Below are positions 20,709 to 55,762 of a stretch of 64,000 bases of DNA, in pieces. This stretch comes from Terriglobus albidus. GTDB taxonomy: Bacteria > Acidobacteriota > Terriglobia > Terriglobales > Acidobacteriaceae. Both the position numbers and the translations under genes were made by a program. The stretch's first letter is position 1, and each line of letters starts with the position of its first letter. Location: the NCBI RefSeq assembly GCF_008000815.1, contig NZ_CP042806.1, positions 2,914,001-2,978,000 of the forward strand, written 5' to 3'. Below the pieces are notes generated by a model that was given only the letters and a program-made list of their open reading frames with translations, had not been told where the DNA came from and did not search any database.

Positions 20709-20722
20709 TGCAAACGGTTGCA
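20709..20722. promoter_or_regulatory. Dyad TGCAA-N4-TTGCA (putative activator site) between divergent EPS genes
   Basis: TGCAA-ACGG-TTGCA inside GTGTGCAAACGGTTGCATC. It lies between two outward-facing sigma-54-type promoters, about 120 bp upstream of the predicted plus-strand start point and about 160 bp upstream of the minus-strand one, normal enhancer distances for NtrC-type activators. Confidence 0.55.
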
Positions 20723-20808
20723 TCGAATCAGGAGCCCGGGGGCGCTGCAAATCCTGTTTCCTGCCTGTAATCCGTGTATAGCCGCCACTTTGGAGCAAGC
20801 TCAGGTTC

Positions 20809-20824
20809 TGGCTGCCGGCGTGCA
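20809..20824 (+). promoter_or_regulatory. Candidate sigma-54-type promoter of the aminotransferase gene
   Basis: TGGCTGCCGGCGTGCA has GG-N10-GC with TGGC and TGCA conserved. The predicted start point is about 20835, 57 nt before the ATG. It is weaker than the 20565 and 55669 sites. Confidence 0.45.
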
Positions 20825-20891
20825 AAGAAGCCGTGATGAGAGTGACCTGCGCCTCATAGAGGCCGGCGGATCCACCGGAAGGGAAGAGTCA

Positions 20892-22040
20892 ATGCAGAAG
20901 ATTCAAATGCTTAATCTGGAGCGCCAATATGCCTCACTTCGCGAAGAGATCGACAGAGCGATTGAAAACGTGCTGGAAAAGCAACATTTCATCCTCGGAC
21001 CCGAGGTTGCCGCTCTTGAGTCGGAGGTGGCGAACTATTGCCAGGTGGGGCACGCGGTAGGCGTCGCCTCGGGAACCGATGCGCTGCTCCTGGCCATGAA
21101 GGCCGCCGGGGTTGGCCCCGGAGACGAGGTCATTGTTCCGGCTTTTACCTTCGTTGCCACGGCGGACACCGTGAGTTTGCTGGGCGCGACGCCGGTATTT
21201 GCCGACATCGATCCGGTCACTTACACCATGGACGTGAAGGGGCTTGAAGCACTGGTGGGACCGGCGACAAAAGCGATTATTGCCGTGCACCTCTATGGAC
21301 AGGCGGCAGATATCTTCGCGATTGCGAAGTTCGCGCGCGCGCACAATCTCGCCTTTATTGGGGATACGGCACAAGCGCTCGGCGCCAAATATGCCGGAGA
21401 CGCGGTCTGCTCGTTTGGCGATTTCGGATGCCTGTCCTTCTTCCCCAGTAAGAACCTCGGCGCGTACGGAGACGGCGGTATGATCGTGACCAAGAGCGCC
21501 GAACAAGCCGCCTATTTGCGAATGGCGCGCGCTCACGGCAGCGCGAAGAAATATAAGAGTGAATTTCTTGGGTGGAACAGCCGCCTCGATGAGATCCAGG
21601 CGGCAATCCTGCGGGTCAAGCTACCACATCTCAATCGATGGAACGAGCAACGGCGTGAACGCGCAGCTCTCTATCACCAGGTGCTACGGGATATCGATGA
21701 GGTAATCCTTCCGGAGACTGTGGAGGGAAGGACTCACGTGTTTCATCAATATACGATCCGGGTTCCGAATCGTGACGCCGTGCAGAACGAACTACGCCAG
21801 TTAGGGGTGGAAACAGCGGTGCATTACCCCATTCCGTTGCACCTGCAGCCCATGTATGAGCACCTGGGATATAAAAAAGGCCGTTTACCCGAGGCGGAGA
21901 GGGCCGCCGGAGAGGTGCTTTCATTACCGATATATCCCCATCTGCTTCCTGAAGAAATCCACTACGTCGGCGAAGCATTGAAGCAGGTCATGGCAAAACC
22001 AGAGATGCGAACCAAGGTGATCCTGGCACAGGTGAGCTGA
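20892..22040 (+). CDS. DegT/DnrJ/EryC1/StrS sugar aminotransferase (WbpE-like)
   Basis: A 382-residue PLP enzyme. The start at 20892 has GGAAGGGAAG just upstream; the frame is open to 20706 but that stretch holds promoter elements. Motifs: ASGTDALLLAMKAAGVGPGD, VPAFTFVATADTV, then SFFPSKNLGAYGDGG with the Schiff-base Lys. WbpE/WlbC-type members put an amino group on C3 of UDP-GlcNAc3-oxo-uronate. That assignment is supported by WbpA-, WbpB-, WbpD- and WbpI-like genes elsewhere in the locus, but sequence alone cannot exclude another keto-sugar. It ends 1 nt before the priming transferase gene. Confidence 0.88.
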   Translation: MQKIQMLNLERQYASLREEIDRAIENVLEKQHFILGPEVAALESEVANYCQVGHAVGVASGTDALLLAMKAAGVGPGDEVIVPAFTFVATADTVSLLGATPVFADIDPVTYTMDVKGLEALVGPATKAIIAVHLYGQAADIFAIAKFARAHNLAFIGDTAQALGAKYAGDAVCSFGDFGCLSFFPSKNLGAYGDGGMIVTKSAEQAAYLRMARAHGSAKKYKSEFLGWNSRLDEIQAAILRVKLPHLNRWNEQRRERAALYHQVLRDIDEVILPETVEGRTHVFHQYTIRVPNRDAVQNELRQLGVETAVHYPIPLHLQPMYEHLGYKKGRLPEAERAAGEVLSLPIYPHLLPEEIHYVGEALKQVMAKPEMRTKVILAQVS

Positions 22041-22041
22041 T

Positions 22042-23382
22042 ATGAAGATTTGCGGAAAAGCATTGCCTCCGAGGGCAGCGCTGCTCCTCTCGCTGGACTT
22101 TGTTGTTCTGGTGATTGTGGCGCCGCTGCTCTTTGTCCTGCCGCTGGTCGCGGGATCGAGCGGCAAGCCCACCGGATCGGTTCTGCTTGGCCTGCTGCGG
22201 CTGATGCTGGTAGGGATTGTCTGTCAGGTTATCTTCTACTATCACGATCTCTATAACCTGCAGACCGTTCGAATTCCCAGAACTACGATTGTGCAGGTTC
22301 TGCGCGCCTTTGCTCTCTTGTTTTTGCTGCTGGCAGCGGGAGTATTTCTTCTGCCCTGGTTGACCCCCGTGCTTTCAAAGGTGTTGTTGTTCGCCAGCTT
22401 CCTTGCGGTTGTGACGCTGGTTTCCAGAAGGCTGGCGCTGCCTCGCAACCGGCAGCGGGTTCTTGTCGTGGGGGCCGGCGATGAGGCCGCGGAACTACAG
22501 GCGATTGTTCTTTCAAGTCCGGAATGGAATATGGAGGTAGCTGAAATTACACCTCCTGCCATGCTGACCAAGGCGCTTCAAGGGGAGAAAAGGGTAAGCG
22601 AAGGCTTCGAACGTATCATCGTGACGAACGTGAAGGCGCAGTCTGACGACAACCTGGAAACCTTGCTGAGTTGCAAGATGGCCGGCATGGAGATCGAGGA
22701 CGCTCAAGCCTTCTTTGAGAATGCGACTGGAAGAGTCCGCGTCGATCATCTGAGTGCGGAGCAATGTATCTTCTCAGACCGCTACAGCAACCGGATCGGG
22801 AAGCGGTTTGCGAAACGGATCTTCGATCTTCTGGTTGCCGGAATGCTATTGGTTGCTACCAGTCCGGTCGTTCTTATTGTTGCGTTGGTGGTTTACCTGC
22901 AACAGGACGGTCCGGTGTTTTACCGGCAGCAGCGTATTGGGCTGTTTGGAAAGCCGTTCAGCATTTTGAAGTTCAGAACGATGTCGCCGGTGACATCAGT
23001 TCAGAAGACCGGGTGGGCGGGGAATGAGACCCACCGCATTACGCGGCTTGGGAAGCATTTGAGGAAATATCGTATCGATGAGTTGCCGCAGCTCGTCAAC
23101 GTACTGCGCGGCGAGATGAGTTTGATTGGGCCAAGACCCGAGCAGCCTCATCTATGTGAAGTACTCGAGCAGCATGTGCCGTTCTACAAGCACCGCCATT
23201 CGGTTCCCCCTGGGCTGACAGGCTGGGCGCAGGTGCGGTACCACTACGGTTCCACGATCGAGGAATCAAAACGCAAGCTTGAGTATGACTTGTTTTATGT
23301 AAAACATCTTTCACTGTGGCTCGATTGTGCAATCGCGCTGGAGACGGTGAAAGTGGTCCTGGTGGGGCGAGGCGCTGTCTAA
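22042..23382 (+). CDS. Polyprenyl-phosphate sugar-1-phosphate transferase (EPS priming enzyme)
   Basis: A 446-residue member of the bacterial sugar transferase family. The N-terminal part has about four helices (LLSLDFVVLVIVAPLLFVL and so on), a Rossmann-like middle part, a further helix (FDLLVAGMLLVATSPVVLIV) and the cytoplasmic catalytic domain: FYRQQRIGLFGKPF, LRKYRIDELPQLVNVLRGEM, IGPRPE, PPGLTGWAQVRYHYG. The middle signature (FFENATGRVRVDHLSAEQ) and the end (KVVLVGRGA) resemble the EpsB-type transferases common in sigma-54/PEP-CTERM EPS loci. It attaches the first sugar phosphate to undecaprenyl phosphate at the inner membrane. It is last in its transcript and followed by a hairpin. Confidence 0.92.
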   Translation: MKICGKALPPRAALLLSLDFVVLVIVAPLLFVLPLVAGSSGKPTGSVLLGLLRLMLVGIVCQVIFYYHDLYNLQTVRIPRTTIVQVLRAFALLFLLLAAGVFLLPWLTPVLSKVLLFASFLAVVTLVSRRLALPRNRQRVLVVGAGDEAAELQAIVLSSPEWNMEVAEITPPAMLTKALQGEKRVSEGFERIIVTNVKAQSDDNLETLLSCKMAGMEIEDAQAFFENATGRVRVDHLSAEQCIFSDRYSNRIGKRFAKRIFDLLVAGMLLVATSPVVLIVALVVYLQQDGPVFYRQQRIGLFGKPFSILKFRTMSPVTSVQKTGWAGNETHRITRLGKHLRKYRIDELPQLVNVLRGEMSLIGPRPEQPHLCEVLEQHVPFYKHRHSVPPGLTGWAQVRYHYGSTIEESKRKLEYDLFYVKHLSLWLDCAIALETVKVVLVGRGAV

Positions 23383-23389
23383 AAGAAAA

Positions 23390-23416
23390 CGGGGAGCGCA
23401 GACTTCGCGCTCCCCG
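23390..23416. terminator. Bidirectional terminator between convergent genes
   Basis: CGGGGAGCGC-AGACTTC-GCGCTCCCCG is a perfect 10-bp GC-rich stem with a 7-nt loop. It is preceded by AAAAGAAAA, which gives a U-run to transcripts on the minus strand. It separates the sugar transferase (plus) from the giant repeat protein (minus). Confidence 0.85.
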
Positions 23417-23430
23417 GTGCAGAGAGGATT

Positions 23431-26400
23431 TTATTGGTAGGCCCCCATCGACGGCGTAGAACCTCGAGAGGCGCCTACGATGTCGATGGTGGAGGTTGTG
23501 CTTGTAGTTCCAGTGGACTTGGCAGGCGACTGTGACTGCAGCGCGAAGTTGCTGGTTGAGACGAAGAGCGGATTCGAGCTTATTGACGATGAATCCCAGG
23601 ATGGAGCTGTGCCCGCACCGTACCACAGGTTACGGGAGCCGCTGACATTCGTCGATCCACTTTCGACATAGGGCTGCGAACTGGATGGCTGGGAACAGAT
23701 GTTGTTCGTCAGGTGCATGCCGGCTCCACTGCTTACGACACCAAAGCAACCGTTCTGGTTTCCAAGCGTGTAAGCTCCTGCATCAACCACGGTGTTGTTA
23801 TAGACCTCAACATTACCGCTGCTTGTGCCTGCAGCAGGGTCGGTGTTGATGGCGATGCCGGCTTCATTGGCAACTCCGTATGGATTGGAAGCGAGCGCAA
23901 CGTGTGCCACGACATTGTTATAGATCTCGACCGTTCCCTGTGACGGATTTACAGAAGCAAGTGCAATACCGTCGCAATAGGAATTGGTTACAACGTTGTC
24001 GTGAATATGCAGGTCGTACTGGTTGCTGCCGAGGGTGGCGTGGAACATGATGCCGCGGCAGTATCCCTTGAAGTTCTGACCAACATTATTCCAGCCCACG
24101 TCGGCATGGTTGACGTTACTCGAGAAGTAGACCGCGTGGTAGGTCTTGTCGACGTTGCCGCCGGTGTCGTGCACATTGTTACCGTGGACGGCCCAGGTTT
24201 CCGATGGATCAGTGGTTTCTCCAAGGAGGCATGCCGTTCCGCCCAGACCCGAGGGCGGTGCAGGGCAGGAGAGGCTGTTATTGATGATGCGGGCATTTCC
24301 AGCTTCAGCATCGATTGCCGAGCTTTGGCCTACGATATTGAGGTTTGCGATGGTGACGTACTTACCCCATCCGTGAACGCCATACGTAATGGAAGAGCTG
24401 CCCACGTTCACCGTTCCGCCGGGATAACCCACGATCGATAGCTGGCTGGTCGGAGAGGAGCCGCCAATATCCGTGGAGATCGCCGACTTGTATCCGCGGC
24501 CATCATCGAAGCTGACATCCGTACCCGGAAGCAGATAGATGACAGTATTACGTACCGGGGTCATCGAGTCGGACGAAGTGACTGAGTTGAAGGCTGCACG
24601 CCACGACTTGAAGGGCGAGGTGAAGCTGCCCGTGTTGGTATCGGCTCCGTTCGGTGAGACAAACACAATGTCTGTCTGTGTGACTGTGAAGGGCACGCCA
24701 TTCGAGGCCGCGCCATTTACGGTGACGACAATGTTGCCGGTCGTCGCCGCACTACCGAGTTGCGCAATGATGGTCGTATCGCTCCACGAGCAGAGGCTGC
24801 AGTTCGTGATCAACTGTCCGCCGAGGGCGACAGTACTGCTGCCCTGAGTTGAACCAAAGTTGCTGCCGAAGATGCGGACGTAGACGCCGTTCCCGTTGTC
24901 TCCGCCGGTGCCGCTGCCAACGTTCAGATCGGTGTAATTGATGTGCGGTCCTCCCGACGAGCCTGAGGAAGAAGCCGTATTGACCGTCACAACAACCGTA
25001 CCTGTGGTGGATGCAGCGGGAGAGCTGGAATCAGTGGCTTTGATGGTGAGCGTGGAGGCGCCCGCAGTTGTGGGTGTGCCGGAGAGTGAGCAGTTGGTCA
25101 GTGTGAGACCTGCAGGAACTGTGCCGCTGGTCAAGGTGCAGGTGTACGGTGCCGTGCCTCCGGAGACACCGATTGTGCCGGTGTAGGCGGAGCCCACCGT
25201 TGCTGTGGTCGGCGAGGTAAGCGTTAGCGTAACCGCGGCATTCACGGTGACAGTGACGGTGCCAGTCGTCGAGTTCGCAGGGCTGCTGGAGTCGGTAGCC
25301 TTGACGGACAGGGAATATGTTCCTGCCGTGGTTGGCGTTCCGCTGAGAGAGCAGCCGCTGAGCGTCAGCCCTGGTACCGAGCCACTTACAAGAGCGCAGG
25401 TGTATGGTGCGGTGCCACCGGAGACTCCGATTGTGCCGGTGTAGGCCGTCCCTACGGTAGCAGCCGCTGTGGGAGAGGTAAGTGTCAATGTCGTGGCTGC
25501 TGCTGCTTTCACTGCGACAGTGACGGTTCCGGTCGTGGAGTTCGCAGGGTTGCTGGAGTCAGTGGCCTTGACGGAGAGCGAATAAGTTCCCGCCGTAGTT
25601 GGCGTTCCGGTGAGAGAGCAGCCACTAAGCGTCAGCCCTGGGACTGAACCACTGACAAGGGAGCAGGCGTATGGTGCAGTGCCACCGGAGACTCCGATTG
25701 TGCCGGTGTAGGCCGTCCCTACGGTAGCAGTCGCCGTGGGAGAGGTAAGTGTCAATGTAGCGGCAGCGGCGGCTTTCACGGTAACCGAGACAGCGCCGGT
25801 CGTCGAGTTTGCGGGGCTACTGGAGTCAGTGGCCTTGACAGAGAGTGAGTACGTTCCGGCGGTAGTCGGCGTTCCGGTAAGGGAGCAGCCGCTGAGAGTG
25901 AGCCCTGGTACCGATCCGGTTACAAGTGAGCAGGCGTACGGTGCGGATCCACCGGAGACGCCAATCGCGCCGGTGTAAGCAGTGCCTACGGTGGCGGAGA
26001 CGGGCGAGCTGATGGAAAGCGTGACAGACGCTGTGCCGATGATGTTCAGTGGCACGGTCGCTGTCGTCGTATTTGCCGGCGAAGCAGAGTCCGTTGCCTT
26101 GATGGACAGGCTATAGGATCCAGCAACAAGCGGCGTTCCGCTGATGGTGCAGCTATTGAGCGTAAGTCCGGAGGGCATGCTTCCACTAGCCAGTGAGCAG
26201 GTATACGGAGCTGTGCCCCCCGAGACACCGATGGTTCCGTTGTAAGCGACACCAACGTTTCCAGAGGGTGGTGCAGTGAGGGCCAACGTTACTGGAGCAG
26301 CGGCAATGCTGAGTGTGACTGGTCCAGTTGTAGCGTTGGCCGGACCGCTGGAGTCAGTTGCCTTGATAGAGAAGGTCGAGTTTCCAGCAGTCGTGGGAGT

Positions 26401-28287
26401 TCCGGTCAGCGAGCAACCGGTCAGCGTCAATCCATTAGGAATCGTTCCGCTCGCCAGTGTGCAGGAGTAAGGTGCTGTTCCACCTGCAACTCCAATAGCA
26501 CCGTTATACAGTGCTCCAACGGTGCCCGATGGCGGCGAAGAAAGGGTTAGTGTCGCCGGTGCTGCGATGACGGTCAGCGTGATGGAAGCGGTTGCCGAGT
26601 CAGTGGGGTGGTTGGAATCCGTCGCTTTTACGACGAGGCTTGTGCTGCCTGCGGCCGAGGGGGTTCCGGTAATTGTGCAGTTGTTGATGCTCAAACCCGA
26701 AGGAAGAGTTCCGCTGACAATCGAGCAGGCATAGGGAGAAGTTCCTCCGGTGATGCCGATAGTGTCGTTGTATGCCTGGCCGACAGTGGCTGTGGATGGC
26801 GAGGTAATTGTTAGTTGGGTCGTGGAGCCCTGGATGACGACGGAGATCTTCTTCTTCCCCTGAGCCGTGGGTTTGGATGAATCCGTTGCGCTGATACCAA
26901 GTGTGTAGACACCTGCTGTTGTTGGAGTGCCCTGAAGCGTGCAATTGTTCAGAAGGATGCCGGCGGGCAGTGTTCCGTCAGTCATGCTGCAGGTGTAGGG
27001 GCCCTTTCCACCGGAGACGCCAATGGAAGCAGAGTAGCCGACACCAACGGTTCCTGAGGCTGGAGAGGTAATGTCCAGTGTGGCTGCGTCCGCGATAGTG
27101 AGCGCCAGGCTCTTGCTCGAAGCTGATGTGCCGGCCGCATCTGTGACTGCGAACACCAGCGAAGAGTTGGCGGCAGCGGTAGGTGTTCCGCTGATAGCGC
27201 AATTCGAGAGCGACAAACCGTTCGGTAAGCTGCCGGATGCAACTGCGCAGGCATAAGGAGACACTCCTCCCACAGCACTGATTGCTGCAGTGTAAGAGGT
27301 ACCAACAGTGCCTGACGGCAATGATGTCGTCGTGACGGTCAGCGTCGACGCTGCGACGGTAAGTGTAAGAGGAGTGGAAGTCGATGCCCCGGTGGCGTCC
27401 GTGACAGTTACTGTGACCGCGAATGTGCCCGCATTGGCAGGCACGCCACTAATGGCGCCAGTGGAAGAGAGCGTGAGACCAGTAGGAAGCGAGCCTGAAG
27501 AGGCAGCCCAACTATACGAAGAAGAGCCACCGGTGGCGGAAAGCTGAGTCGAATACTCTGCACCTACCGTTCCGCGCGGAAGAGATCGGGACGTAATCGT
27601 GATGGGAGATACCGTCGAGCCAACACGGATCGTCCTTGGAGTAACAACGTTTGTCTGCGCATCGCTGGCGTCGGTCGTTTTGAAGGTGAATGTATATGTG
27701 CCGGCAGCAGTGGGCGTACCTGCGATTTTGCTTGTGGACGGGTCAAAGGAGAGGCCCGCCGGAAGGTTCCCGGAAGAGATCGATGATTGAACCGGATTCG
27801 ATCCGCCCGCAGTCGTCACCAAACCCGAATAGGGAGAGCCCACTGTGGCTGAATCCAGATTCGCAGTTACCGTCAGCGCCGGATTGACGGTAACTGCGAT
27901 GGACCCAGCGTCGCTTGCCGTGACCAGAGTGGCATTGATGGTCGTATGGAGCGGGGATGATACCGTCTGCGGCGCGACGTAGGTGATGTATCCAGATCCC
28001 GGAGTAACGGTGCCGCAACTTCCATCAGAGCATCCCGTTCCATTGACGGCCCAGGAGGTGCTTGACGTGGTTGTTGCTGGAATCTGGATCGATTGGCCGG
28101 CGTTCAGAGTAATCGTTGACGTAGCTGAAGCTGCGTTGACTCTGGATCCCCCCCATCCGCACCCATTGGTGCCCAGGAGAAGGAGCGTCAGAGTTAGAAG
28201 AAATAAGGGAAATCCGAAAGAGCGGTCGCAAAATGCGATTTGATGTTGAGTGATTCTTGTAAAGCAAACAGAAATTTCCTTGCGCAC
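23431..28287 (-). CDS. Giant secreted protein: 11 Ig-like (He_PIG) repeats, IPT/TIG and right-handed beta-helix
   Basis: About 1618 residues. A hydrophobic signal (FPLFLLTLTLLLLGTNGCGW) has a possible lipobox Cys. Then come one Ig-like region, eleven repeats of about 86 residues sharing ATVGxAYTGTIGVSGG and GTPTTAGTYSLSVKATDSS, an IPT/TIG domain (VYVRIFGSNFGSTQGSSTV) and a beta-helix starting DIVFVSPNGADTNTGSF. Repeats 3-11 each carry two Cys that could form a disulphide. Repeats 8-10 are almost identical. The start is a GTG at 28287 with AGGGAG upstream; the frame is open to 28392, which would run through a dyad operator. Probably an outer-surface EPS-binding or lyase-like protein; no catalytic residues are recognised. 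Confidence 0.85.
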   Translation of the reverse strand: MRKEISVCFTRITQHQIAFCDRSFGFPLFLLTLTLLLLGTNGCGWGGSRVNAASATSTITLNAGQSIQIPATTTSSTSWAVNGTGCSDGSCGTVTPGSGYITYVAPQTVSSPLHTTINATLVTASDAGSIAVTVNPALTVTANLDSATVGSPYSGLVTTAGGSNPVQSSISSGNLPAGLSFDPSTSKIAGTPTAAGTYTFTFKTTDASDAQTNVVTPRTIRVGSTVSPITITSRSLPRGTVGAEYSTQLSATGGSSSYSWAASSGSLPTGLTLSSTGAISGVPANAGTFAVTVTVTDATGASTSTPLTLTVAASTLTVTTTSLPSGTVGTSYTAAISAVGGVSPYACAVASGSLPNGLSLSNCAISGTPTAAANSSLVFAVTDAAGTSASSKSLALTIADAATLDITSPASGTVGVGYSASIGVSGGKGPYTCSMTDGTLPAGILLNNCTLQGTPTTAGVYTLGISATDSSKPTAQGKKKISVVIQGSTTQLTITSPSTATVGQAYNDTIGITGGTSPYACSIVSGTLPSGLSINNCTITGTPSAAGSTSLVVKATDSNHPTDSATASITLTVIAAPATLTLSSPPSGTVGALYNGAIGVAGGTAPYSCTLASGTIPNGLTLTGCSLTGTPTTAGNSTFSIKATDSSGPANATTGPVTLSIAAAPVTLALTAPPSGNVGVAYNGTIGVSGGTAPYTCSLASGSMPSGLTLNSCTISGTPLVAGSYSLSIKATDSASPANTTTATVPLNIIGTASVTLSISSPVSATVGTAYTGAIGVSGGSAPYACSLVTGSVPGLTLSGCSLTGTPTTAGTYSLSVKATDSSSPANSTTGAVSVTVKAAAAATLTLTSPTATATVGTAYTGTIGVSGGTAPYACSLVSGSVPGLTLSGCSLTGTPTTAGTYSLSVKATDSSNPANSTTGTVTVAVKAAAATTLTLTSPTAAATVGTAYTGTIGVSGGTAPYTCALVSGSVPGLTLSGCSLSGTPTTAGTYSLSVKATDSSSPANSTTGTVTVTVNAAVTLTLTSPTTATVGSAYTGTIGVSGGTAPYTCTLTSGTVPAGLTLTNCSLSGTPTTAGASTLTIKATDSSSPAASTTGTVVVTVNTASSSGSSGGPHINYTDLNVGSGTGGDNGNGVYVRIFGSNFGSTQGSSTVALGGQLITNCSLCSWSDTTIIAQLGSAATTGNIVVTVNGAASNGVPFTVTQTDIVFVSPNGADTNTGSFTSPFKSWRAAFNSVTSSDSMTPVRNTVIYLLPGTDVSFDDGRGYKSAISTDIGGSSPTSQLSIVGYPGGTVNVGSSSITYGVHGWGKYVTIANLNIVGQSSAIDAEAGNARIINNSLSCPAPPSGLGGTACLLGETTDPSETWAVHGNNVHDTGGNVDKTYHAVYFSSNVNHADVGWNNVGQNFKGYCRGIMFHATLGSNQYDLHIHDNVVTNSYCDGIALASVNPSQGTVEIYNNVVAHVALASNPYGVANEAGIAINTDPAAGTSSGNVEVYNNTVVDAGAYTLGNQNGCFGVVSSGAGMHLTNNICSQPSSSQPYVESGSTNVSGSRNLWYGAGTAPSWDSSSISSNPLFVSTSNFALQSQSPAKSTGTTSTTSTIDIVGASRGSTPSMGAYQ
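24960..27300 (-). repeat. Tandem in-gene repeats of about 255-270 bp
   Basis: The Ig-like modules of the giant protein are visible as DNA repeats. The most similar three occupy about 25200-26030, where phrases such as gtgccaccggagactccgat recur. The period matches one protein module. High nucleotide identity suggests recent duplication or gene conversion and makes assembly length here uncertain. Confidence 0.75.
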
Positions 28288-28352
28288 GCGCTCGTTCTCC
28301 CTGAAAAAGGTGAGGTGAAAAAGATGTTGATGAGGCCCGACTGGTGAACGTG

Positions 28353-28366
28353 TGCAAAGCTTTGCA
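28353..28366. promoter_or_regulatory. Perfect 14-bp palindrome TGCAAAGCTTTGCA between divergent genes
   Basis: TGCAAAGCTTTGCA, in context GTGTGCAAAGCTTTGCAATC, is self-complementary and has the same TGCAA-N4-TTGCA form as the sites at 20709, 48859 and 55749. It lies between the giant repeat protein (minus) and the acetyltransferase (plus) and may control both. Confidence 0.55.
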
Positions 28367-28514
28367 ATCCTGTCTCCGCTGACGCCAAACACCTAAGTCG
28401 TTGATTTCTCGTCTACCTTTTGGCTGGTCGCGGAAGATTTATTCCCCGGACTAGGAAAAAAATTCCGGTCCCTGGGCTCGGTGAATGGACTGTGACGTGC
28501 TCGGAGACAGGCGG

Positions 28515-28530
28515 GGGCCAGTCCGTTGCC
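28515..28530 (+). promoter_or_regulatory. Weak candidate sigma-54-type promoter of the acetyltransferase gene
   Basis: GGGCCAGTCCGTTGCC keeps GG-N10-GC and TTGC but deviates at the first base of the -24 element and the last of the -12. The predicted start point is near 28541, about 180 bp from the palindrome at 28353 and about 11 nt before the TTG start chosen for the gene. Confidence 0.3.
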
Positions 28531-28551
28531 TCAACGAGCTGGAATGTTGCA

Positions 28552-29115
28552 TTGGTTACAGAGTTCAAAGAAGATCTGGGGCGGTATCGGGCCTATGGAG
28601 AGTCTTACCGGCGAATCCTCCTCAATCCTGCGGTCTGGTGTATCTTCTGGTACCGCCTGGGCCGTTGGATATATAGCCCGGACAGGAACCTGCTTGTCAG
28701 AAGTTTGGGCAAGCCTCTCCATCTGATTGGGGCGACTTGGATCGAGGCGTTTTTGCAGATGCGGATCAACGTCCGTGCTGAGATCGGTCCCGGTCTCTTG
28801 ATCGCCCACTGCGGCGGAATCACCCTACATCCCGAAGTCGTCATCGGACGGAATTGTGATATTGCGCATCATGTCACGCTGGGCACGCGAGGCGCCGGCG
28901 CGCAAGGAGCTCCTAAGCTTGGAAACAATGTCTACATCGGTACGAATGCCGTTCTGATTGGCTCTATACGGGTAGGAGACGGGGCCAGAATCGCGGCGAA
29001 CTCACTCGTCAATCGTGATGTTCCTGCCGGAGCGACTGTCATGGGAGTGCCGGCGGTTGTCGTAAAACAGAGGACCGCAAAACAAATCGCAGAAGAATCA
29101 GAGGTGACTGTATGA
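28552..29115 (+). CDS. Serine acetyltransferase-like hexapeptide transferase
   Basis: About 187 residues of the CysE-like left-handed beta-helix family. The typical N-terminal phrase is VTEFKEDLGRYRAYGES, followed by FWYRLGRWIY and hexapeptide turns (GLLIAHCGGITLHPEVVIG, IAHHVTLGTRG, KLGNNVYIGTNAVLIG, ANSLVNRDVPAGATVMGVPA). The catalytic His pair is visible (AHCGG, DIAHH). In EPS loci these enzymes usually acetylate a sugar or lipid intermediate rather than serine. The start is uncertain: the frame is open to 28420, and I chose TTG 28552 because the family begins here and the upstream part looks non-coding. It overlaps the next gene by ATGA. Confidence 0.8.
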   Translation: MVTEFKEDLGRYRAYGESYRRILLNPAVWCIFWYRLGRWIYSPDRNLLVRSLGKPLHLIGATWIEAFLQMRINVRAEIGPGLLIAHCGGITLHPEVVIGRNCDIAHHVTLGTRGAGAQGAPKLGNNVYIGTNAVLIGSIRVGDGARIAANSLVNRDVPAGATVMGVPAVVVKQRTAKQIAEESEVTV

Positions 29116-30395
29116 CGAAGTCAAAACATCCTCTGCTGCTTTTTGCTGCCCCCTATTTTGCTCCGGCATATCACGGTGGCGTTGTTCAGATTTATCTCGG
29201 CCTGCTGACCCGGCTAAAACGATACAGAGTCATTGTCGTTGGCGATCGATCCAATACGTCACTGATGGCATTAGAGGAATGGGACACATTGGCAAAGCAA
29301 CGCTACGGCCTGGATGTGGAGCGGATCGATGCATTTGAATTCCATATGGGTGACCGAAAGATGGGACCGCTGGGCAGGCTTGTGCAGTTAGCCCGGTTCC
29401 TGCGACATGGGCGACGGCAATGGCAGGAACTCTGCAAGAAATACTCACCCGATGCTGTTGTCTGTGGTGGTACGTACTCCGCCGGATGGTTGATGAAGAA
29501 TCTTCCTCGACGTACGGCGCTGGTGAACTACATTCATGGAGAGGAGCTGACGATGGCGGTTAAGCCTCGCTTCCTGGCTCCATACATGCATTATTGGCAA
29601 CACCGCTGCATTCGACGAGCCGATATGAATCTTTCGGTAAGCAGCTATACGGCACACTTGGTATCTCGAATGACAGGAGCTCCCGTGGAAAAATCAAAGA
29701 TCCTTTCCAACTTTATCGACCTCAATCGGTTCTATATCTCGGGGAAGCGCGCAGAACTGCGCGCCGGCTACGGTTGGCAGGAGAAAACCGTTCTTCTGAC
29801 AGTGGCAAGGCTGGAGAAGCGGAAGGGAATCGATCAGGTGCTTCGCGGGCTTGACGTTTTGAGGCGGCAGGAGAAACTGTCTTCCTCATGGAGATATGTA
29901 ATCGGAGGCAAGGGACCAGAACGCGACGCTCTGGTCCAGTTGGTAAAAGAGCTGGAACTTACGGAGTATGTCGAATTTCTTGGCTTCGTTCCCGACGAGG
30001 ACCTTCCCGGACTCTACGAGAGTGCAGATGTGTTTGTGCAGCCCAACCGGGAGATCAATGGCGATACAGAAGGATTTGGAGTTGTCTTCCTGGAGGCAAA
30101 CGCTTGCGGTCTGCCAGTCATTGGAGGCGAGGCCGGCGGTACTGCGGATGCAATTGGTCATGGTCGGACAGGATTCCGGGTGAACGGCGAATTGGTGTAT
30201 GAGATTGCTGCTGCGATCTCTATCCTGATGGAAAATGACGAGCTGCGCACCCGCCTGGGGCAGCAGGCGGTGGAATGGGCAGCTAACTTTGATGTGAACA
30301 AAGCGGTCCATCGGTTTGAGAACCTGATGGACGAAGCTTTGTTTAAACATGGTGCGGCGCCCAAAAACCTTACATCAGTAAGCGCCGATATCTAA
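29112..30395 (+). CDS. Glycosyltransferase family 4 (GT-B)
   Basis: A 427-residue GT-B enzyme. The N-terminal acceptor domain opens LLFAAPYFAPAYHGGVVQI. The donor domain has TVARLEKRKGIDQVLRGLD, VIGGKGPERDALVQLVKEL, VEFLGFVPDEDLPGLYESAD and the retaining E-x7-E motif region EGFGVVFLEANACGLPVIGG. It transfers a nucleotide sugar to the growing lipid-linked oligosaccharide at the cytoplasmic face. It is translationally coupled to the acetyltransferase, and its last 21 bp overlap the tail of the convergent beta-helix gene. Confidence 0.9.
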   Translation: MTKSKHPLLLFAAPYFAPAYHGGVVQIYLGLLTRLKRYRVIVVGDRSNTSLMALEEWDTLAKQRYGLDVERIDAFEFHMGDRKMGPLGRLVQLARFLRHGRRQWQELCKKYSPDAVVCGGTYSAGWLMKNLPRRTALVNYIHGEELTMAVKPRFLAPYMHYWQHRCIRRADMNLSVSSYTAHLVSRMTGAPVEKSKILSNFIDLNRFYISGKRAELRAGYGWQEKTVLLTVARLEKRKGIDQVLRGLDVLRRQEKLSSSWRYVIGGKGPERDALVQLVKELELTEYVEFLGFVPDEDLPGLYESADVFVQPNREINGDTEGFGVVFLEANACGLPVIGGEAGGTADAIGHGRTGFRVNGELVYEIAAAISILMENDELRTRLGQQAVEWAANFDVNKAVHRFENLMDEALFKHGAAPKNLTSVSADI

Positions 30396-45354: not shown

Positions 45355-45355
45355 C

Positions 45356-46831: not shown

Positions 46832-48104
46832 GGGGACCTCCATGCTGTTTCGACCAGGTGAACGTCACAAAAAAGACCGTTCTTGCCAAATCGACCGAAG
46901 AGACGGTGCGTTGAAAATGTCGTGCCGTAAATGACCATTCCGCCCATTCCGAAAGATGACGGTGGAACTCGCCCGACACGAAATATCCATCGATGTCTGA
47001 GCTTGTATTCGTCAACGCTCCGCCATGGTAGCTGGTATAACCACCGTCGACTGAAACAGTGAACCGTCTGGGATTGCCAGCCTGCGCTCCGCCATAGACA
47101 GAGGTCTCCCAAAGGGACCCTGCGACGACACCATTACCGCGTTTACGGCTTGTGCCTATGTAGATCCGGTTTCCTCGAGCGTTCTGCGCTGAAACGGCAA
47201 ACGCGTATTGATAGTTGCCGGTGCATTGCGCAGAACCGAAAACCGGACCGCCCGAGCCTTCGACCCGCACAGCCGTGGTCATCTGGTACGTGGACAAGCC
47301 TTCGAGCGCGGCGGTTACGCAGGTGCCCGCTCCGAAGTTTTGTTGTACTGCATCGCTTCGAACCCCAACGAGCAGGCGGCGACTCCATAATTCGCGATAA
47401 GCCGCATTTATCTCGTATTGCCGGGTGGAGGGAGCAGCCCCAAGGAAATTATGGAAGCCTGCGCTTGCGCCGAAAGATAGCGCGCTTACTTCAGAAGTTT
47501 CGTGGTCGACAAGAAATGTTACGTATTGCCGCAGCGTGTCACCGGTGATGAGTCCCGTTTGTACGCCGTTATTGTCGATTGCTGAATTTACAGAAGCAAG
47601 ACTGACGCTGCTTCCAGCGCGCGCCGCATCTGCGCCGTATGCATTTGCAGCGTTCAGACCCCATACGGTACGGGGGCTGGTGATCTCAGTCATGCCAACG
47701 GTTGTCCAGTGATACTGTTGCATTTTGATATCACTTGCCGGGAACTGAAGTACGGTCGCGTCGTGCGTAAGATAGCTGGAGAAGCGGTGTCCCACGGAAC
47801 TGATGCCGACGTGGCCCTGTATTCCAAGTGTGTTGGACTTCAGGTCGGGTGTGTTGTTTACGGCAGTATCCCGGCCATAGGAGAGGGCTGCTCCGAGGTC
47901 GAAATATGACCGTTCTTCACGCGGGACCGCAGCGTCTACCCATCCCGGGCGGATCTCCTGTTGTGTCGAGGTTTGGCTATTGTCTGCCTCTGAGGATTGC
48001 TGGGTCTGAGAAGGTGTTTGCTTGTGTGCAGTTTGAGCAACTACACCGGCCGGGGGAGTAAGGCAGATAAGGCAGAGCAAGGAAACAGGGCAGAGTGCTT
48101 TCAC
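46821..48104 (-). CDS. Outer-membrane beta-barrel protein of the EPS export system
   Basis: A 427-residue protein with a signal peptide (VSLLCLICLTPPAGVVA-QTA), a Gln/Ser/Thr-rich linker and many alternating strands (YFDLGAALSYGRD, LGIQGHVGISSVGHRFSSYL, RRLLVGVRSDAVQQNF), ending with an aromatic-terminated strand (TVFFVTFTW) close to the C-terminus. I recognise no named family, but barrels of this kind are encoded next to the exporter in many acidobacterial and PEP-CTERM-type EPS loci. The GTG start overlaps the Wza-like stop (GTGA). A structural or pore role in export is inferred. Confidence 0.75.
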   Translation of the reverse strand: MKALCPVSLLCLICLTPPAGVVAQTAHKQTPSQTQQSSEADNSQTSTQQEIRPGWVDAAVPREERSYFDLGAALSYGRDTAVNNTPDLKSNTLGIQGHVGISSVGHRFSSYLTHDATVLQFPASDIKMQQYHWTTVGMTEITSPRTVWGLNAANAYGADAARAGSSVSLASVNSAIDNNGVQTGLITGDTLRQYVTFLVDHETSEVSALSFGASAGFHNFLGAAPSTRQYEINAAYRELWSRRLLVGVRSDAVQQNFGAGTCVTAALEGLSTYQMTTAVRVEGSGGPVFGSAQCTGNYQYAFAVSAQNARGNRIYIGTSRKRGNGVVAGSLWETSVYGGAQAGNPRRFTVSVDGGYTSYHGGALTNTSSDIDGYFVSGEFHRHLSEWAEWSFTARHFQRTVSSVDLARTVFFVTFTWSKQHGGPRVR

Positions 48105-48742
48105 GGGATCACCACTGTGTCGCCAGGATTGAGCTGCAGATTATGATTCGGATCCGAACCTTGAAGCAGAGACTTGTAGTTCACCCAGATACCGCCAGCT
48201 GGCCCGCTTGCACGGAGTACATGGATCTTTTTCTTGGAGGCAAATTGGGTGAGACCACCAGCCTGTGCGATCAACTGAAGTACGGTGATCGGGGTATTCA
48301 ACGGGTAGGCGCCGGGACGTGTAATTTCTCCGGTGATGTAGACCATTCGGCTGTGTATCTCGGTTACTGTGACCGTCACACGCGGCTGCACCACCATTGA
48401 TTGGAGGCGGGTTTGGATCAGGTCTTCCAACTGGGACGGTTCTTTACCCACGACATACACTTCGCCAAGCAATGGGAGTGAGATCTTGCCATCGGGGCGG
48501 ACAACGACCGTCTGGCTCAGGTCTTTTTCCTTCCAGACCTGGATGTTGAGGACATCTCCGCTTCCAATCGTGTACTGCGGCGCAGCAACGGCAGGCGCAG
48601 TGCGAGGGTCGGCTTTCGGCACGCTCGAAGCGTTGGTCTTGCCTGCATCTGCCACGCGCTGTTGTCCATAGCAAATTCCGGTGCAGAGAAGAGCCACGGA
48701 CACGGCTCGCAAGCACCATATGGTATGAGACCTGGGCTTCAT
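48101..48742 (-). CDS. Polysaccharide export protein (Wza/GumB-like)
   Basis: About 213 residues. Signal peptide (SVALLCTGICYGQQ), Poly_export domain (YTIGSGDVLNIQVWKEKDL, VVVRPDGKISLPLLGEV) and one SLBB domain (VYITGEITRPGAYPLNTPI, LQLIAQAGGLTQFASKKKI). It is short compared with E. coli Wza (about 380) and lacks a clear lipobox and amphipathic C-terminal helix, more like GumB. The ATG at 48742 has GGAAGG 9 nt upstream; the longer frame to 49087 runs into the neighbouring gene and is rejected. It forms the periplasmic/outer-membrane exit with the barrel encoded next. A sigma-54-type promoter sits 20 nt before the ATG. Confidence 0.9.
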   Translation of the reverse strand: MKPRSHTIWCLRAVSVALLCTGICYGQQRVADAGKTNASSVPKADPRTAPAVAAPQYTIGSGDVLNIQVWKEKDLSQTVVVRPDGKISLPLLGEVYVVGKEPSQLEDLIQTRLQSMVVQPRVTVTVTEIHSRMVYITGEITRPGAYPLNTPITVLQLIAQAGGLTQFASKKKIHVLRASGPAGGIWVNYKSLLQGSDPNHNLQLNPGDTVVIP

Positions 48743-48772
48743 AATTGCCATCCTTCCGATGCTTAAAGAAGA

Positions 48773-48788
48773 AGCAATCAAAAAGCCA
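48773..48788 (-). promoter_or_regulatory. Sigma-54-type promoter of the export genes
   Basis: TGGCTTTTTGATTGCT on the minus strand: GG-N10-GC, TGGC and TTGCT match the consensus. The predicted start point is near 48762, giving a 20-nt leader that carries GGAAGG. A 7-bp dyad (48856-48875) lies about 100 bp upstream, inside the end of the preceding glycosyltransferase gene. Confidence 0.65.
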
Positions 48789-48824
48789 AATGGGCCATCT
48801 ATTTGGGAGCGTTTAAGGCAGATA

Positions 48825-50189
48825 TCAGGCTTTGCGGAGGGATGCCTTCGGAAATGTGTGCAGGACCTTGCACACTTTCGGCTGCGCTGCTTTAGCGGCG
48901 ATTGCCATCCGATATACGTCGATCGTTTGCCGCGCGATCTGATCCCAACCGACATACCTGCGAGGGTTATTCGCTGCTCCCGCGAGAAGGTCGAGATAGA
49001 TGTTTCTGCCTGCCTCAGCTCGCGGCTGCTGGTATAGATTTGTGATGCCGTCGACCGCTTCTTGGAGTGCGAAGGAAAGTGCTGCAACGTCTCCGGGAGG
49101 CACCAGCAGTGCGTTCTGGTTTGGTTCCAGATACTCCCGGAATGGCGGCAGGTCGGAGGCGATAATTGGCTTCCGGTAGCACAGGCCTGTCAGCAGAGCG
49201 CCGCTGGTTGTTATTGAACGATAGGGATACACCAGCAGATCGGCAGCCTGGTAGTAGGAAGGCAGTCGGCTTGTGGGAATGTAGTGAACGTCTGCTCGCA
49301 GGGTATCCGGCAGGGCAGCGGCTGCTGCTTGAACCTCGGCCTCGACCTCCGATGAACCCGTACCTGCAATGACCAGCAGCGGCATAGCTGTCGATCGATT
49401 TCTCCATCGAGGCACGCTGGCCGTCCACGCCTGGAGCAGAAGATCTAATCCCTTATAGGACGCCATCACTCCCTGCCAGAGGACGATAGGTCGGTCTGGA
49501 GGAAGCTTCAGGGTTGCACGGGCATCGCTGGGATTCCTTTGATCCGCGGATTCGAAGAGAGGCCCATGCGGTATGACAGAGATAAAGATGGAAGGTATAT
49601 CGAATCGAGCCTCCAATGCATCTGCGATATCCCGCGAGTGGCAGATCAGGTGATCCACGCTGCGATAGAGGCGGCCGTATATGCTCTCCAGGCGATTCCC
49701 GGTGTCGTGTGGAAGCAGGTTATGAACAGTGTGCACAACCGGGATGTGGCATCTCCGGGCGGCACGGAGCAACTCGAAGTCGCTTCCGATATTGTGGTTC
49801 AACAAAGGTAACTGCTGCAGGTGGATGATGTCGGGGCGCTTTGAGGGAGTGCTCTCCAGCGTTCTTGCGAGTGCAATGGCGTTCGAGATAGCGGCGGCGC
49901 AACGCAGGACACGCCGCAGTGATGAGGGCCAGCCATTTGCAAGCTGGTCAAAGCGGAAAGGACCCGGATCAGGAGATAAACCCACTTGAGAAAAATACTC
50001 AGGCTCGCGAGAGACACTGGCACTGAGCAGGCGCAGGGAGACATTTGCTGAAGCGAGCGCACGGGCGAGTGAGGCGGTATACCAGGGGGTAAAACACAGA
50101 GGATCACTTAGCCATACGCGCAGGGATGAGCCATCCGGTTGCGGGCCTTCTGTCGCCTTATGCGATGTCGCGATCGGTACCACGCCCAT
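48825..50189 (-). CDS. Glycosyltransferase family 4 (GT-B)
   Basis: A 454-residue GT-B enzyme. N-terminal VWLSDPLCFTPWYTASLARAL and VVHTVHNLLPHDTGN; donor domain with VLWQGVMASYKGLDLLLQAW, VIAGTGSSEVEAEVQ, SRLPSYYQAADLLVYPYRSI and TSGALLTGLCYRKPIIASDL. The second Glu of the usual E-x7-E motif is not obvious (SGALLTGL), so it may belong to a divergent subfamily. It overlaps the upstream GT gene by 32 nt. It transfers one sugar of the EPS repeat unit. Confidence 0.85.
   Translation of the reverse strand: MGVVPIATSHKATEGPQPDGSSLRVWLSDPLCFTPWYTASLARALASANVSLRLLSASVSREPEYFSQVGLSPDPGPFRFDQLANGWPSSLRRVLRCAAAISNAIALARTLESTPSKRPDIIHLQQLPLLNHNIGSDFELLRAARRCHIPVVHTVHNLLPHDTGNRLESIYGRLYRSVDHLICHSRDIADALEARFDIPSIFISVIPHGPLFESADQRNPSDARATLKLPPDRPIVLWQGVMASYKGLDLLLQAWTASVPRWRNRSTAMPLLVIAGTGSSEVEAEVQAAAAALPDTLRADVHYIPTSRLPSYYQAADLLVYPYRSITTSGALLTGLCYRKPIIASDLPPFREYLEPNQNALLVPPGDVAALSFALQEAVDGITNLYQQPRAEAGRNIYLDLLAGAANNPRRYVGWDQIARQTIDVYRMAIAAKAAQPKVCKVLHTFPKASLRKA
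48856..48875. promoter_or_regulatory. Dyad GTGTGCA-N6-TGCACAC (putative activator site)
   Basis: GTGTGCAGGACCTTGCACAC: perfect 7-bp half-sites, and the core TGCAG-GACC-TTGCA differs from TGCAA-N4-TTGCA by one base. It lies within the coding end of the upstream glycosyltransferase gene, about 100 bp upstream of the start point predicted from the 48773 promoter. Confidence 0.55.
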
Positions 50190-51330: not shown

Positions 51331-51349
51331 ATACCACACCCCACATCGT

Positions 51350-52314: not shown

Positions 52315-52323
52315 AGGGGACAC

Positions 52324-53733: not shown

Positions 53734-53734
53734 G

Positions 53735-54106: not shown

Positions 54107-54486
54107 CTGACTATTCCTCTATCGGTTTTGGAAAGCAACGCGATGCCAACCGCCATGACGGTAATACCGGTCCAGCGCCAAGGCCCCATCGATTCATGCA
54201 GAAGATAGTGGCCCAAAAAGCCCAGCAAAATGTAGTTAACGGCAGCGAGAGGATAGAGGTAACTGATGTTCTTTTGCGCGACTGCGGCAAACCAGAGCAG
54301 CGTTCCAACTCCGTAGACGCAAAGTCCGATCAGCACCCCCCATGGGAGACTCAGTGGCCACTGGAGAGCCAAGAGACCAAGTCTACCTTTCCCCAAAAGG
54401 CCAACCTTGATCAGTATCTGCCCGGCCGCAGCCATGGCCACTGAGCCTCCCACCAACATCTCTGTCTTGTAGCGAATGGTTCGCAT
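54103..54486 (-). CDS. Half-size EamA/SMR-like membrane transporter, first of a pair
   Basis: A 127-residue four-helix protein (MLVGGSVAMAAAGQILIKVG, GVLIGLCVYGVGTLLWFAAV, ISYLYPLAAVNYILLGFLGH, WTGITVMAVGIALLSKT). The motif SYLYPLAAVNYILLGFLGHY matches the equivalent SYAYPLLSLGYVLVTSLAAL of its partner at 53735. It lies 24 nt downstream of the Gfo/Idh/MocA gene. Confidence 0.78.
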   Translation of the reverse strand: MRTIRYKTEMLVGGSVAMAAAGQILIKVGLLGKGRLGLLALQWPLSLPWGVLIGLCVYGVGTLLWFAAVAQKNISYLYPLAAVNYILLGFLGHYLLHESMGPWRWTGITVMAVGIALLSKTDRGIVR

Positions 54487-54510
54487 GAAGATCCTGCAGT
54501 TTCTTCCCGT

Positions 54511-55629
54511 CTAGGAGTGCGCCACGACTACCGGCATGCCTGGGACCATCGGCAGGCTCGGCGTCCATTGCCGGTTAATGGTTTGCGGTGGGTGGAGTGC
54601 TTTGGAAACGGCTCCCGAATGAAGCGATACGGGCAGGCCATCCATTTCCAGAGATTTTTGAGCCGCTTCTAGAATGCGGACGACACGTAGGCCATCCTGA
54701 GAGTCGCTCCTTGGTGTGATGCGATGCTCGACACAGTTAATGAAATGTTGGAACTCAAGTTTGAGCGGTTCGGTCGCGATCAGATGAGGTATCTGAATAT
54801 CACCGAAACGCACCTGAATCGCTTCGCCGTAAGAGCATGTAGCCGGGCTCTGCGCGCCGCTGTCGTAGATCCGGAGTTTCTCCGAAGCTGCTGCGTCATC
54901 GAAGACGAGCATCTTCTTGCTGCCAACGACGGTCGTGCTGCGCATCTTGTGCGGGTCGAGCCATGAGATGTGGATATGCGCCATCCGGCGATTCGCGAAG
55001 AACAGGCTAAGGAAAACGACGTCTTCAATGCCATCCTGGATAAACGATTGTCCCCTGGCGCTCACATCGACCGGATCCTCGCCGAGTATGTAGAGAATCT
55101 GGGAGAGATCGTGCGGCGCAAAGCTCCAGAGGGCGTTCTCATCACCACGAATGCGGCCGAGATTTACCCGCTGCGTGTAGATGTAGTAGATCTCGCCCAG
55201 ATCACCAGACTGGATGATCTCGCGGATGCGATTGACGGCGGGATGGTATTCGAGAAGATGTCCAACCATAAGGATCCGTCCCCTCGCTGCCGCAAGTGCC
55301 GACAGCTCCTCCGCATCCCGGACGTTAAGGGTAAAGGGTTTTTCTACAAAGACGTCTTTGTCAGCAAGAAGCGCTTTTTTGGCGAGGGGATAGTGCGTAA
55401 TTGCTGGCGAGCTGATGACGACAGCTCGAATCTCGGCGTGTTGCGCGAGCATTTCATCAAGTGATGCAACGGTTTGCACATTCCAGTTGCGTTCTGCCAT
55501 TGAGCGGCGGGCCTCATTCAGATCGCTGCAGACTACCAAGTCGCACTCGGGCATTTCATAGAGGCACCGGGCGACGTTGCAGCCCCAGGCGCCGAGACCT
55601 ACAACTCCTACCTTCAATCGAGCTCCCAT
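54511..55629 (-). CDS. Gfo/Idh/MocA-family sugar dehydrogenase (WbpB-like)
   Basis: About 372 residues. NAD-binding N-terminus KVGVVGLGAWGCNVARCLYE, then SSPAITHYPLAKKALLADKD and DVFVEKPFTLNVRDAEELSA with the catalytic EKP motif, and MVGHLLEYHPAVNRI. AAGGAG lies 9 nt before the ATG at 55629. In the UDP-ManNAc3NAcA pathway WbpB oxidises C3 of UDP-GlcNAcA; the divergent WbpA-like gene and WbpE/D/I-like genes support this, but Gfo/Idh members vary in substrate. It is the first gene of the 25-kb minus-strand run and has a near-consensus sigma-54 promoter. Confidence 0.85.
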   Translation of the reverse strand: MGARLKVGVVGLGAWGCNVARCLYEMPECDLVVCSDLNEARRSMAERNWNVQTVASLDEMLAQHAEIRAVVISSPAITHYPLAKKALLADKDVFVEKPFTLNVRDAEELSALAAARGRILMVGHLLEYHPAVNRIREIIQSGDLGEIYYIYTQRVNLGRIRGDENALWSFAPHDLSQILYILGEDPVDVSARGQSFIQDGIEDVVFLSLFFANRRMAHIHISWLDPHKMRSTTVVGSKKMLVFDDAAASEKLRIYDSGAQSPATCSYGEAIQVRFGDIQIPHLIATEPLKLEFQHFINCVEHRITPRSDSQDGLRVVRILEAAQKSLEMDGLPVSLHSGAVSKALHPPQTINRQWTPSLPMVPGMPVVVAHS

Positions 55630-55668
55630 CGTGGATGTCTCCTTGTATGAACCGTATGCAGACACAGG

Positions 55669-55684
55669 AGCAATCTCCATGCCA
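55669..55684 (-). promoter_or_regulatory. Near-consensus sigma-54 promoter heading the 25-kb EPS gene run
   Basis: TGGCATGGAGATTGCT on the minus strand matches TGGCAC-N5-TTGCW at all but the sixth base. The predicted start point is near 55658, leaving a 29-nt leader with AAGGAG. The best match among the candidates in this window. Confidence 0.72.
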
Positions 55685-55748
55685 TTTCGGATCGCACCTT
55701 AGAGGGAGCAGAAGACTGCCATTTCAGCCCGGAAATAGGCAGGTTACG

Positions 55749-55762
55749 CGCAACTCTTTGCA
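55749..55762. promoter_or_regulatory. Dyad YGCAA-N4-TTGCA between divergent EPS operons
   Basis: CGCAA-CTCT-TTGCA (minus strand TGCAA-AGAG-TTGCG), one base off the shared dyad. It lies about 97 bp upstream of the minus-strand start point and about 147 bp upstream of the plus-strand one predicted from the two sigma-54-type promoters. Confidence 0.5.

Follow-up and report, generated by a model that had tools for sequence, protein, structure and literature searches.

An exopolysaccharide (EPS) cluster of Terriglobus albidus carries five copies of a dyad built on the core TGCAA-N4-TTGCA, four of them in front of cluster genes (R1 to R4) and one inside a coding sequence. We consider it likely that these dyads are enhancers (upstream activating sequences) of a sigma-54 regulon, which would switch on the EPS cluster of Terriglobus through an NtrC-type activator, most likely the protein encoded at 61407. 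This assessment rests on comparative sequence analysis of the window, i.e., the 64,000 nucleotides from 2914001 to 2978000 of the 6.4 Mb genome. Positions below are relative to the window unless stated otherwise.

In the proposed mechanism, the activator would bind the dyad as a dimer via its Fis-type helix-turn-helix (HTH). DNA looping would then carry the bound activator to sigma-54 RNA polymerase at -24/-12 promoters located 85–149 bp away, where its GAFTGA-bearing ATPase would open the promoter. At R1 and R4 a single dyad would serve two divergent promoters, and at R2 an IHF-type bend would probably aid the loop.

Dyads in the EPS cluster

The five dyads of the window are:

20706–20725 (core 20709–20722): R1, GTGTGCAAACGGTTGCATCG, between the divergent epimerase (minus strand) and aminotransferase (plus strand) genes.
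28350–28369 (core 28353–28366): R2, GTGTGCAAAGCTTTGCAATC, upstream of the acetyltransferase gene, with a large surface-protein gene on the opposite side.
48856–48875: R3, GTGTGCAGGACCTTGCACAC, upstream of the Wza-like export gene and inside the 3' end of the preceding open reading frame (ORF; 48825–50189).
55746–55765 (core 55749–55762): R4, ACGCGCAACTCTTTGCATAC, between the divergent oxidoreductase (minus strand) and nucleotide-sugar dehydrogenase (plus strand) genes.
55462–55481 (exact core 55465–55478): intragenic dyad, TGATGCAACGGTTTGCACAT, within the coding region of the oxidoreductase gene.

The dyads approach the consensus AAAGTRTGCAA-N4-TTGCAYACTTT. An earlier sequence-only reading had reported R1 to R4, and all four are present at the positions and with the letters that it gave, including the left part GTGTGCA common to the sites at 20709, 28353 and 48859; it overlooked the exact intragenic copy at 55465.

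The exact core occurs three times in the window (20709, 28353, 55465), compared to a mean of 0.07 and a maximum of 1 in 100 shuffled sequences. The longer pattern GTRTGCAA-N4-TTGCAYAC, with at most three mismatches, matches exactly the five listed places (shuffle mean 0.63, maximum 2). The entire genome contains 10 exact cores, three of which lie in the window, against six matches to a reversed-pattern control.

A second, imperfect dyad, TGTAAAAGTGTGCA, overlaps R1 at 20699–20722, with an offset of 10 bp or one helical turn. It is also found in the relatives G001, G008 and G018 but not in G007, G004, G013 and G003.

Conservation within Terriglobus

The cluster, including the activator gene, is syntenic in six relatives, namely G001 (Terriglobus albidus DSM 26559), G018, G007, G004, G013 and G003 (T. 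roseus DSM 18391), while G008 and G010 contain cluster fragments only. Comparisons of nine genomes below refer to the window and all eight relatives, and comparisons of seven genomes to the window and the six syntenic relatives. The motif search in the genome and in orthologous loci that the sequence-only reading had called for found the dyads at conserved places and at conserved distances from the promoters. In most of the six syntenic relatives a variable spacer of 4 bp separates half-sites that are kept. The R1 core is exact and at the same place in eight relatives, with variable spacers (ACGG, ACCG, ACCC, TTCC, TCCA), and that of R2 is exact in eight of nine genomes, the window included (spacers AGCT, AGGC, AGGA, CAAA, GTAA). 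R3 is present in all seven genomes; in each, the inner base of one half-site is mismatched. R4 keeps its place in all seven, with one or two core mismatches in each and a left half that reads CGCAA or GGCAA. T. roseus is the poorest of the set: it has R2 in mismatched form only, a weak R4 and no intragenic site.

A symmetric 26-bp matrix was built from 17 distinct R1–R4 sites of G018, G007, G004, G013 and G003, leaving out R2 of G003, which has only mismatched forms, and all intragenic sites. Applied to the 64 kb of the window, which contributed no site to it, the matrix ranked the five dyads first to fifth with scores of 27.4–18.8, and the next place scored 12.7. R3 scored 27.4, R1 24.3, and the intragenic site, ranked fourth, 21.0. 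Across 19 Terriglobus genomes, there were 10 extended dyads with at most one mismatch, compared to one for the control. They were found in six of the seven genomes with an ortholog of 61407 and in only one of the 12 without, and that one (G010) has a fragment of the cluster. Clusters of exact cores in G002 (2857355–2865901) and G006 (3374212–3396073) scored below 13 with the matrix.

Sigma-54-type promoters at conserved distances

An upstream activating sequence is suitably placed at roughly 70–200 bp from its -24/-12 promoter. Sigma-54-type sites were scored with weights based on the consensus TGGCACG-N4-TTGCW and have the form GG-N10-GC; distances run from the dyad centre to the -12 GC. Conserved spacing was searched at 60–200 bp with a score of at least 15, and some genomes give extra, unconserved candidates. 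The sites in the window are:

20565–20580, minus strand: TGGCATTTGAAATGCA, toward the epimerase gene; 149–153 bp from R1 in nine of nine genomes.
20809–20824, plus strand: TGGCTGCCGGCGTGCA, toward the aminotransferase gene (ATG near 20892); 104–109 bp from R1 in nine of nine genomes.
28486–28501, plus strand: TGGACTGTGACGTGCT, toward the acetyltransferase gene (ATG near 28544); 139–152 bp from R2 in nine of nine genomes.
48773–48788, minus strand: TGGCTTTTTGATTGCT, toward the export gene (ATG near 48742); 91–93 bp from R3 in seven of seven genomes.
55669–55684, minus strand: TGGCATGGAGATTGCT, toward the oxidoreductase gene (ATG near 55629); 81–85 bp from R4 in seven of seven genomes.
55876–55891, plus strand: TGGCATATCCCGTGCA, toward the nucleotide-sugar dehydrogenase gene (ATG near 55905); 129–135 bp from R4 in six of seven genomes.

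In the window itself the distances are 149 and 107 bp for R1, 140 bp for R2, 91 bp for R3, and 85 and 134 bp for R4. Hence, six predicted promoters lie 85–149 bp from the four dyads, at distances that are conserved. The sequence-only reading had placed such start points about 100–160 bp from three of its sites; the placement holds, though for all four sites and at 85–149 bp. Its proposal that two sites lie between divergent promoters agrees with our results for 20709 and 55749. The dyads are kept together with their promoters in the orthologous loci, with the exceptions of the mismatched R2 of T. roseus and of R4 in G001, where an insert separates the dyad from the dehydrogenase-side site. At the epimerase side, three of the nine genomes have TGGTC in place of TGGCA.

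The genes that these promoters would serve are:

19553–20581, minus strand: NAD-dependent epimerase (R1; profile matches).
20892–23382, plus strand: DegT-type aminotransferase and EpsB-like sugar transferase (R1; profile matches).
28544–30395, plus strand: serine-acetyltransferase-like protein and glycosyltransferase (R2; profile matches and synteny).
45356–48742, minus strand: export gene and the following genes through the chain-length determinant (R3; profile matches).
54511–55629, minus strand: GFO/IDH/MocA-type oxidoreductase (R4; profile matches).
55905–61115, plus strand: nucleotide-sugar dehydrogenase, glycosyltransferase, hexapeptide, UDP-GlcNAc 2-epimerase-type and epimerase/dehydratase genes (R4; profile matches).

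Judging from their spacing, the genes at 45356–48742 probably form one operon, and those at 55905–61115 presumably do so as well. The epimerase ORF starts upstream of a likely ATG near 20521, and homology begins at residues 12–21 in all six syntenic relatives. According to profile matches, the cluster contains epimerase, DegT aminotransferase, EpsB-like sugar transferase and glycosyltransferase genes, as well as genes for a Wzy-type ligase, a flippase-type protein, Wza-like export and chain-length proteins, a nucleotide-sugar dehydrogenase and the NtrC-type activator. The Wza-like export and chain-length proteins both fall short of the cutoff of the NCBIfam model that fits them best.

An IHF-type site, AATCAACGACTTA (28394–28406, minus strand), lies between R2 and its promoter and matches the IHF consensus WATCAANNNNTTR. 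Such a match is found at +41 to +46 from R2 in nine of nine genomes. In 484 kb of five genomes there are nine matches to WATCAANNNNTTR, five of which are the R2-linked sites, and three HU/IHF-type proteins are encoded in the genome. R1, R3 and R4 have no IHF-type site, and among 49 dyads of other loci one has such a site within 150 bp, against 0.24 expected, which is no excess. Therefore, IHF is not a general feature of the dyads.

The cluster also contains a gene for a large surface protein with 11 putative Ig (He_PIG) repeats (23431–28392). In some relatives its homology begins only at residue 629 or 890.

The intragenic site

Measured from the oxidoreductase promoter, the dyad at 55465 is 199 bp downstream, and it precedes the dehydrogenase promoter by 418 bp. 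It is read in the frame V-Q-T-V-A. Its exact core is present in six genomes including the window, and is absent in G003. All six share the codons GTG, CAA, GTT and GCA, and only the ACN codon that fills the spacer differs among them; of the 268 comparable codons of the gene, 47 are identical in the six. Among 150 comparable positions, this pattern of fixed half-sites and a free spacer is found only at the 55465 site, which suggests that selection acts here on the DNA within the coding sequence.

The activator encoded at 61407

The proposed binder is encoded within the cluster:

61407–62891, minus strand: NtrC-type activator with a degenerate receiver, an AAA+ domain with GAFTGA and a Fis-type HTH (helix SYRTLLYK); syntenic in six relatives.

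The AAA+ domain (PF00158, 216.8 bits) and the HTH (HTH_8, 45.2 bits) exceed their Pfam cutoffs, while the receiver, at 21.0 bits, stays under its cutoff of 30.2. The GAFTGA motif has a role in activators of sigma-54. The genome encodes rpoN, over the model cutoff, together with an activator that has GAFTGA, AAA+ and HTH and so is competent for sigma-54.

The receiver of 61407 retains the Asp but has SS at the position of the acidic pair, and the kinase gene at 16395 is found at the cluster in only one of the six syntenic relatives. Whatever its signal, control of 61407 is probably not by classical phosphorylation, given that the acidic pair is missing and that the cluster has no conserved partner kinase. 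On these grounds and on the receiver score, 61407 does not conform to a classical two-component response regulator. A FleQ-like motif for cyclic di-GMP (c-di-GMP) was not seen on reading the protein, beyond which no search for this motif was made. Among 26 EPS-linked homologs, inspected by eye, the receiver lacks the acidic pair in 10, no receiver is aligned in another 10, and six keep the acidic residues; a SY[RK]-type helix was counted in 22 of the 26.

Dyads in other genera of the family

A search with the chain-length protein in 80 genomes of the family gave a match at 1e-40 in 47 of them. For the family test, 40 of 61 places were taken, mostly but not strictly from the top of the list, and exclusion of the second EPS locus of T. 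albidus itself left 39. Dyads scoring at least 18 occurred in 13 of these 39 EPS loci of other genera, compared to a mean of 0.48 and a maximum of 3 for 100 matrices with shuffled columns. At other thresholds the numbers of loci were 23 versus 7.2 (maximum 16) at a score of 13, 18 versus 2.8 (maximum 9) at 15, and 7 versus 0.1 (maximum 1) at 20. Some of these dyads precede export or activator homologs by a few hundred bases. In Granulicella mallensis, an activator that is 57 percent identical adjoins homologs of the He_PIG, epsB, degT and epimerase genes, and its dyads score 28.2 and 22.1, one of them at the place of R1.

Promoter orientation was analysed for the 39 loci and for seven of ten others, all seven added once their dyads had been seen, and dyads less than 250 bp from the end of a stretch were dropped. 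For the 38 dyads with a score of at least 15, a sigma-54-type site at 40–220 bp pointed away from the dyad in 20 cases and toward it in five, against 5.8 (maximum 13) at random positions in 200 draws. Placement as for enhancers of NtrC-type activators, proposed in the sequence-only reading together with pairing to sigma-54-type promoters and a link to such an activator, is thus supported by the phylogenetic footprinting with conserved distances, the held-out matrix, the enrichment in the family and the orientation of the promoters.

More tentatively, with the chances somewhat below even, the results may be combined into a single picture of an EPS regulon spanning the Acidobacteriaceae, together with an intragenic enhancer that would act from within a transcribed region on divergent promoters. 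The activators in this picture would have pseudo-receivers or no receiver, carry a helix of the SY[RK]xLLYK type and be encoded beside EPS export operons, with one dyad code shared across paralogous loci.

Further dyads outside the cluster

Outside the cluster, the best site of the genome is a perfect 20-mer at genome position 57866, flanked by a radical SAM gene on one side and a gene of unknown function on the other. In G001 and G010 a perfect 20-mer with other spacers adjoins the same gene of unknown function, and G010 has the radical SAM gene as well. At the gene of a TonB-plug protein (4951517), a dyad lies 81 bp from a sigma-54-type site, and its core is unchanged in G001 and G008. Further dyads in G004 and G003 precede the aligned start of other export-gene homologs by about 250 and 220 bp, respectively, so that the dyad code may extend to paralogous EPS loci.

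Several other loci were observed alongside these. At about 4.42–4.46 Mb T. albidus has a second EPS locus. It contains a Wzy-type gene, homologs of the export and chain-length genes and two divergent activator homologs, and its dyads are weaker (18.1 and 13.8). In G005 and G003 (position 2001 of loci L230 and L232), the exact core lies between two divergent homologs of sigma-54 activators, one with a SYKALLYK helix, where autoregulation is possible. NusG-type genes adjoin the EPS-linked activator at loci L107 (12832–13425) and L152 (8831–9484), and the former passes the cutoff of the UpxY antiterminator model. T. roseus also has a very strong dyad (33.7, position 2004 of locus L223) with none of the query proteins nearby.

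Alternative explanations

Several observations weigh against a sigma-54 enhancer read by 61407. Loose matches show no excess: the 14-mer with two mismatches occurs 30 times in the window, against 30.1 by chance, and the 20-mer with at most three mismatches 32 times in the genome, against 33 for the control. Since these counts are no higher than those of chance and control, loose matches carry no meaning; what is informative are exact or extended matches, their position and their conservation. The proposal that the motif exceeds chance frequency consequently stands for exact and extended dyads in the window and fails for loose ones. In the family, 26 of the 39 EPS loci lack a dyad scoring at least 18, and an activator homolog was present in the stretch at only 23 of the 39. 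G008 and G010 have cluster fragments with dyads, while no ortholog of 61407 was found in these fragmented assemblies. In Terriglobus, the dyad nearest to the 61407 gene is 5.6 kb away, and hence there is no hint of autoregulation. G007, G004 and G013 have a second activator copy with the same helix and 67–68 percent identity, but no dyad scoring at least 18 lies within the 100 kb examined around each copy.

The link between helix and dyad favours an activator like 61407, with a caveat that belongs here. In 79 loci (L103 onward) that are 8 kb or longer and have an activator ORF of 350 aa or more, dyads scoring at least 18 were found in 14 of 24 loci whose activator has a SY[RK]xLLxK-type helix, versus one of 55 without, and among EPS-linked loci only in 11 of 19 versus none of three. 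This association is only suggestive, as it also follows phylogeny, most helix-less loci being from other phyla. Furthermore, the core word alone does not name its binder, because AphA of Vibrio cholerae prefers ATGCAA-N4-TTGCAT according to the chromatin immunoprecipitation sequencing described in PMC6855506. AphA shares the core of our dyads but is a PadR-family protein, not a sigma-54 activator.

An alternative explanation might be that a different activator with this type of helix, for instance one of the homologs at 4.45 Mb, uses the dyads as sigma-54 enhancers, and that 61407 shares the sites or controls something else. The genome has 15 matches to the 61407 protein, one with the related helix SYKALLYK (L024), and the exact core between divergent activator homologs in G005 and G003 indicates that related proteins may read the same core. 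Yet, it is 61407 that keeps synteny with the sites in six relatives, and its ortholog and the near-perfect extended dyad tend to occur in the same genomes. We therefore regard this alternative as unlikely.

Considerably less probable is an unrelated regulator that binds as a dimer, such as a PadR-type protein, and represses or activates alongside sigma-54 control. The preference of AphA would fit such a regulator, but in other genera sigma-54-type sites are oriented away from the dyads, with a preferred distance, and within the genus their distances are fixed. No PadR match was found among the cluster proteins scanned, which did not include every ORF of the window, and the genome was not searched for PadR genes. 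Hairpins in the RNA, as in terminators or attenuators, or matches by chance have very little to recommend them: R3 can form a perfect 7-bp stem and loose matches are at chance frequency, but the alignments show half-site letters that are mostly conserved rather than covarying and an R4 that is not fully paired, divergent genes flank R1 and R4, other genera have the word as well, and the ranking by the held-out matrix and the family-wide enrichment largely refute both.

Comparison with known systems

Enhancer binding by a sigma-54 activator at this very core has a precedent. The review PMC8657755 describes that HrpS contacts TGCAA-N4-TTGCA at -138/-125 of the sigma-54 promoter of hrpL. The core and its position upstream of a sigma-54 promoter are alike, although HrpS controls type III secretion in plant-associated Proteobacteria. 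The precedent supports the enhancer reading of our dyads and reduces their novelty.

The architecture resembles that of PEP-CTERM genes, for which Haft et al. 2006 (PMC1569441) report, for Proteobacteria only, a PrsR box and a sigma-54 motif upstream. There too, a short conserved motif precedes a -24/-12 site and the proposed NtrC-like activator is encoded near EPS genes. In contrast to our TTGCA dyad, the PrsR box is by its description a 17-nt motif ending in TTTACA. Assignment of 61407 to PrsR was rejected, since it scores 276.5 bits against the cutoff of 502.6 of NCBIfam TIGR02915, and an assignment to the PrsR/PEP-CTERM box fails on both the protein model and the motif. The cluster proteins scanned had no match to PEP-CTERM targets or exosortase; the genome was not searched for them. 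BerB of Burkholderia cenocepacia is likewise a sigma-54 activator controlling EPS production. However, it acts via a second regulator, BerA, and binds c-di-GMP, and no dyad of the TGCAA-N4-TTGCA form was seen for it in the available parts of PMC5552954 and PMC9684580.

Among the open-access matches listed, none described an acidobacterial EPS or sigma-54 regulon by its title or abstract opening. The view that no motif had been published for an acidobacterial EPS locus is in line with these matches. Nevertheless, the core word is already known from HrpS and AphA, and the architecture from proteobacterial PEP-CTERM genes.

Implications

Acidobacteria are abundant in soil and produce EPS, and the matches listed include no described transcriptional control of this production. 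Our analysis supplies a candidate activator, a precise site model and six predicted promoters with conserved spacing in a genus that is available in culture (T. roseus DSM 18391, T. albidus DSM 26559). The intragenic copy at 55465 offers a clean case for asking whether selection maintains an enhancer that lies in coding DNA. Moreover, the motif carries over to other genera of the family, and the switch of acidobacterial EPS production becomes a directly testable question.

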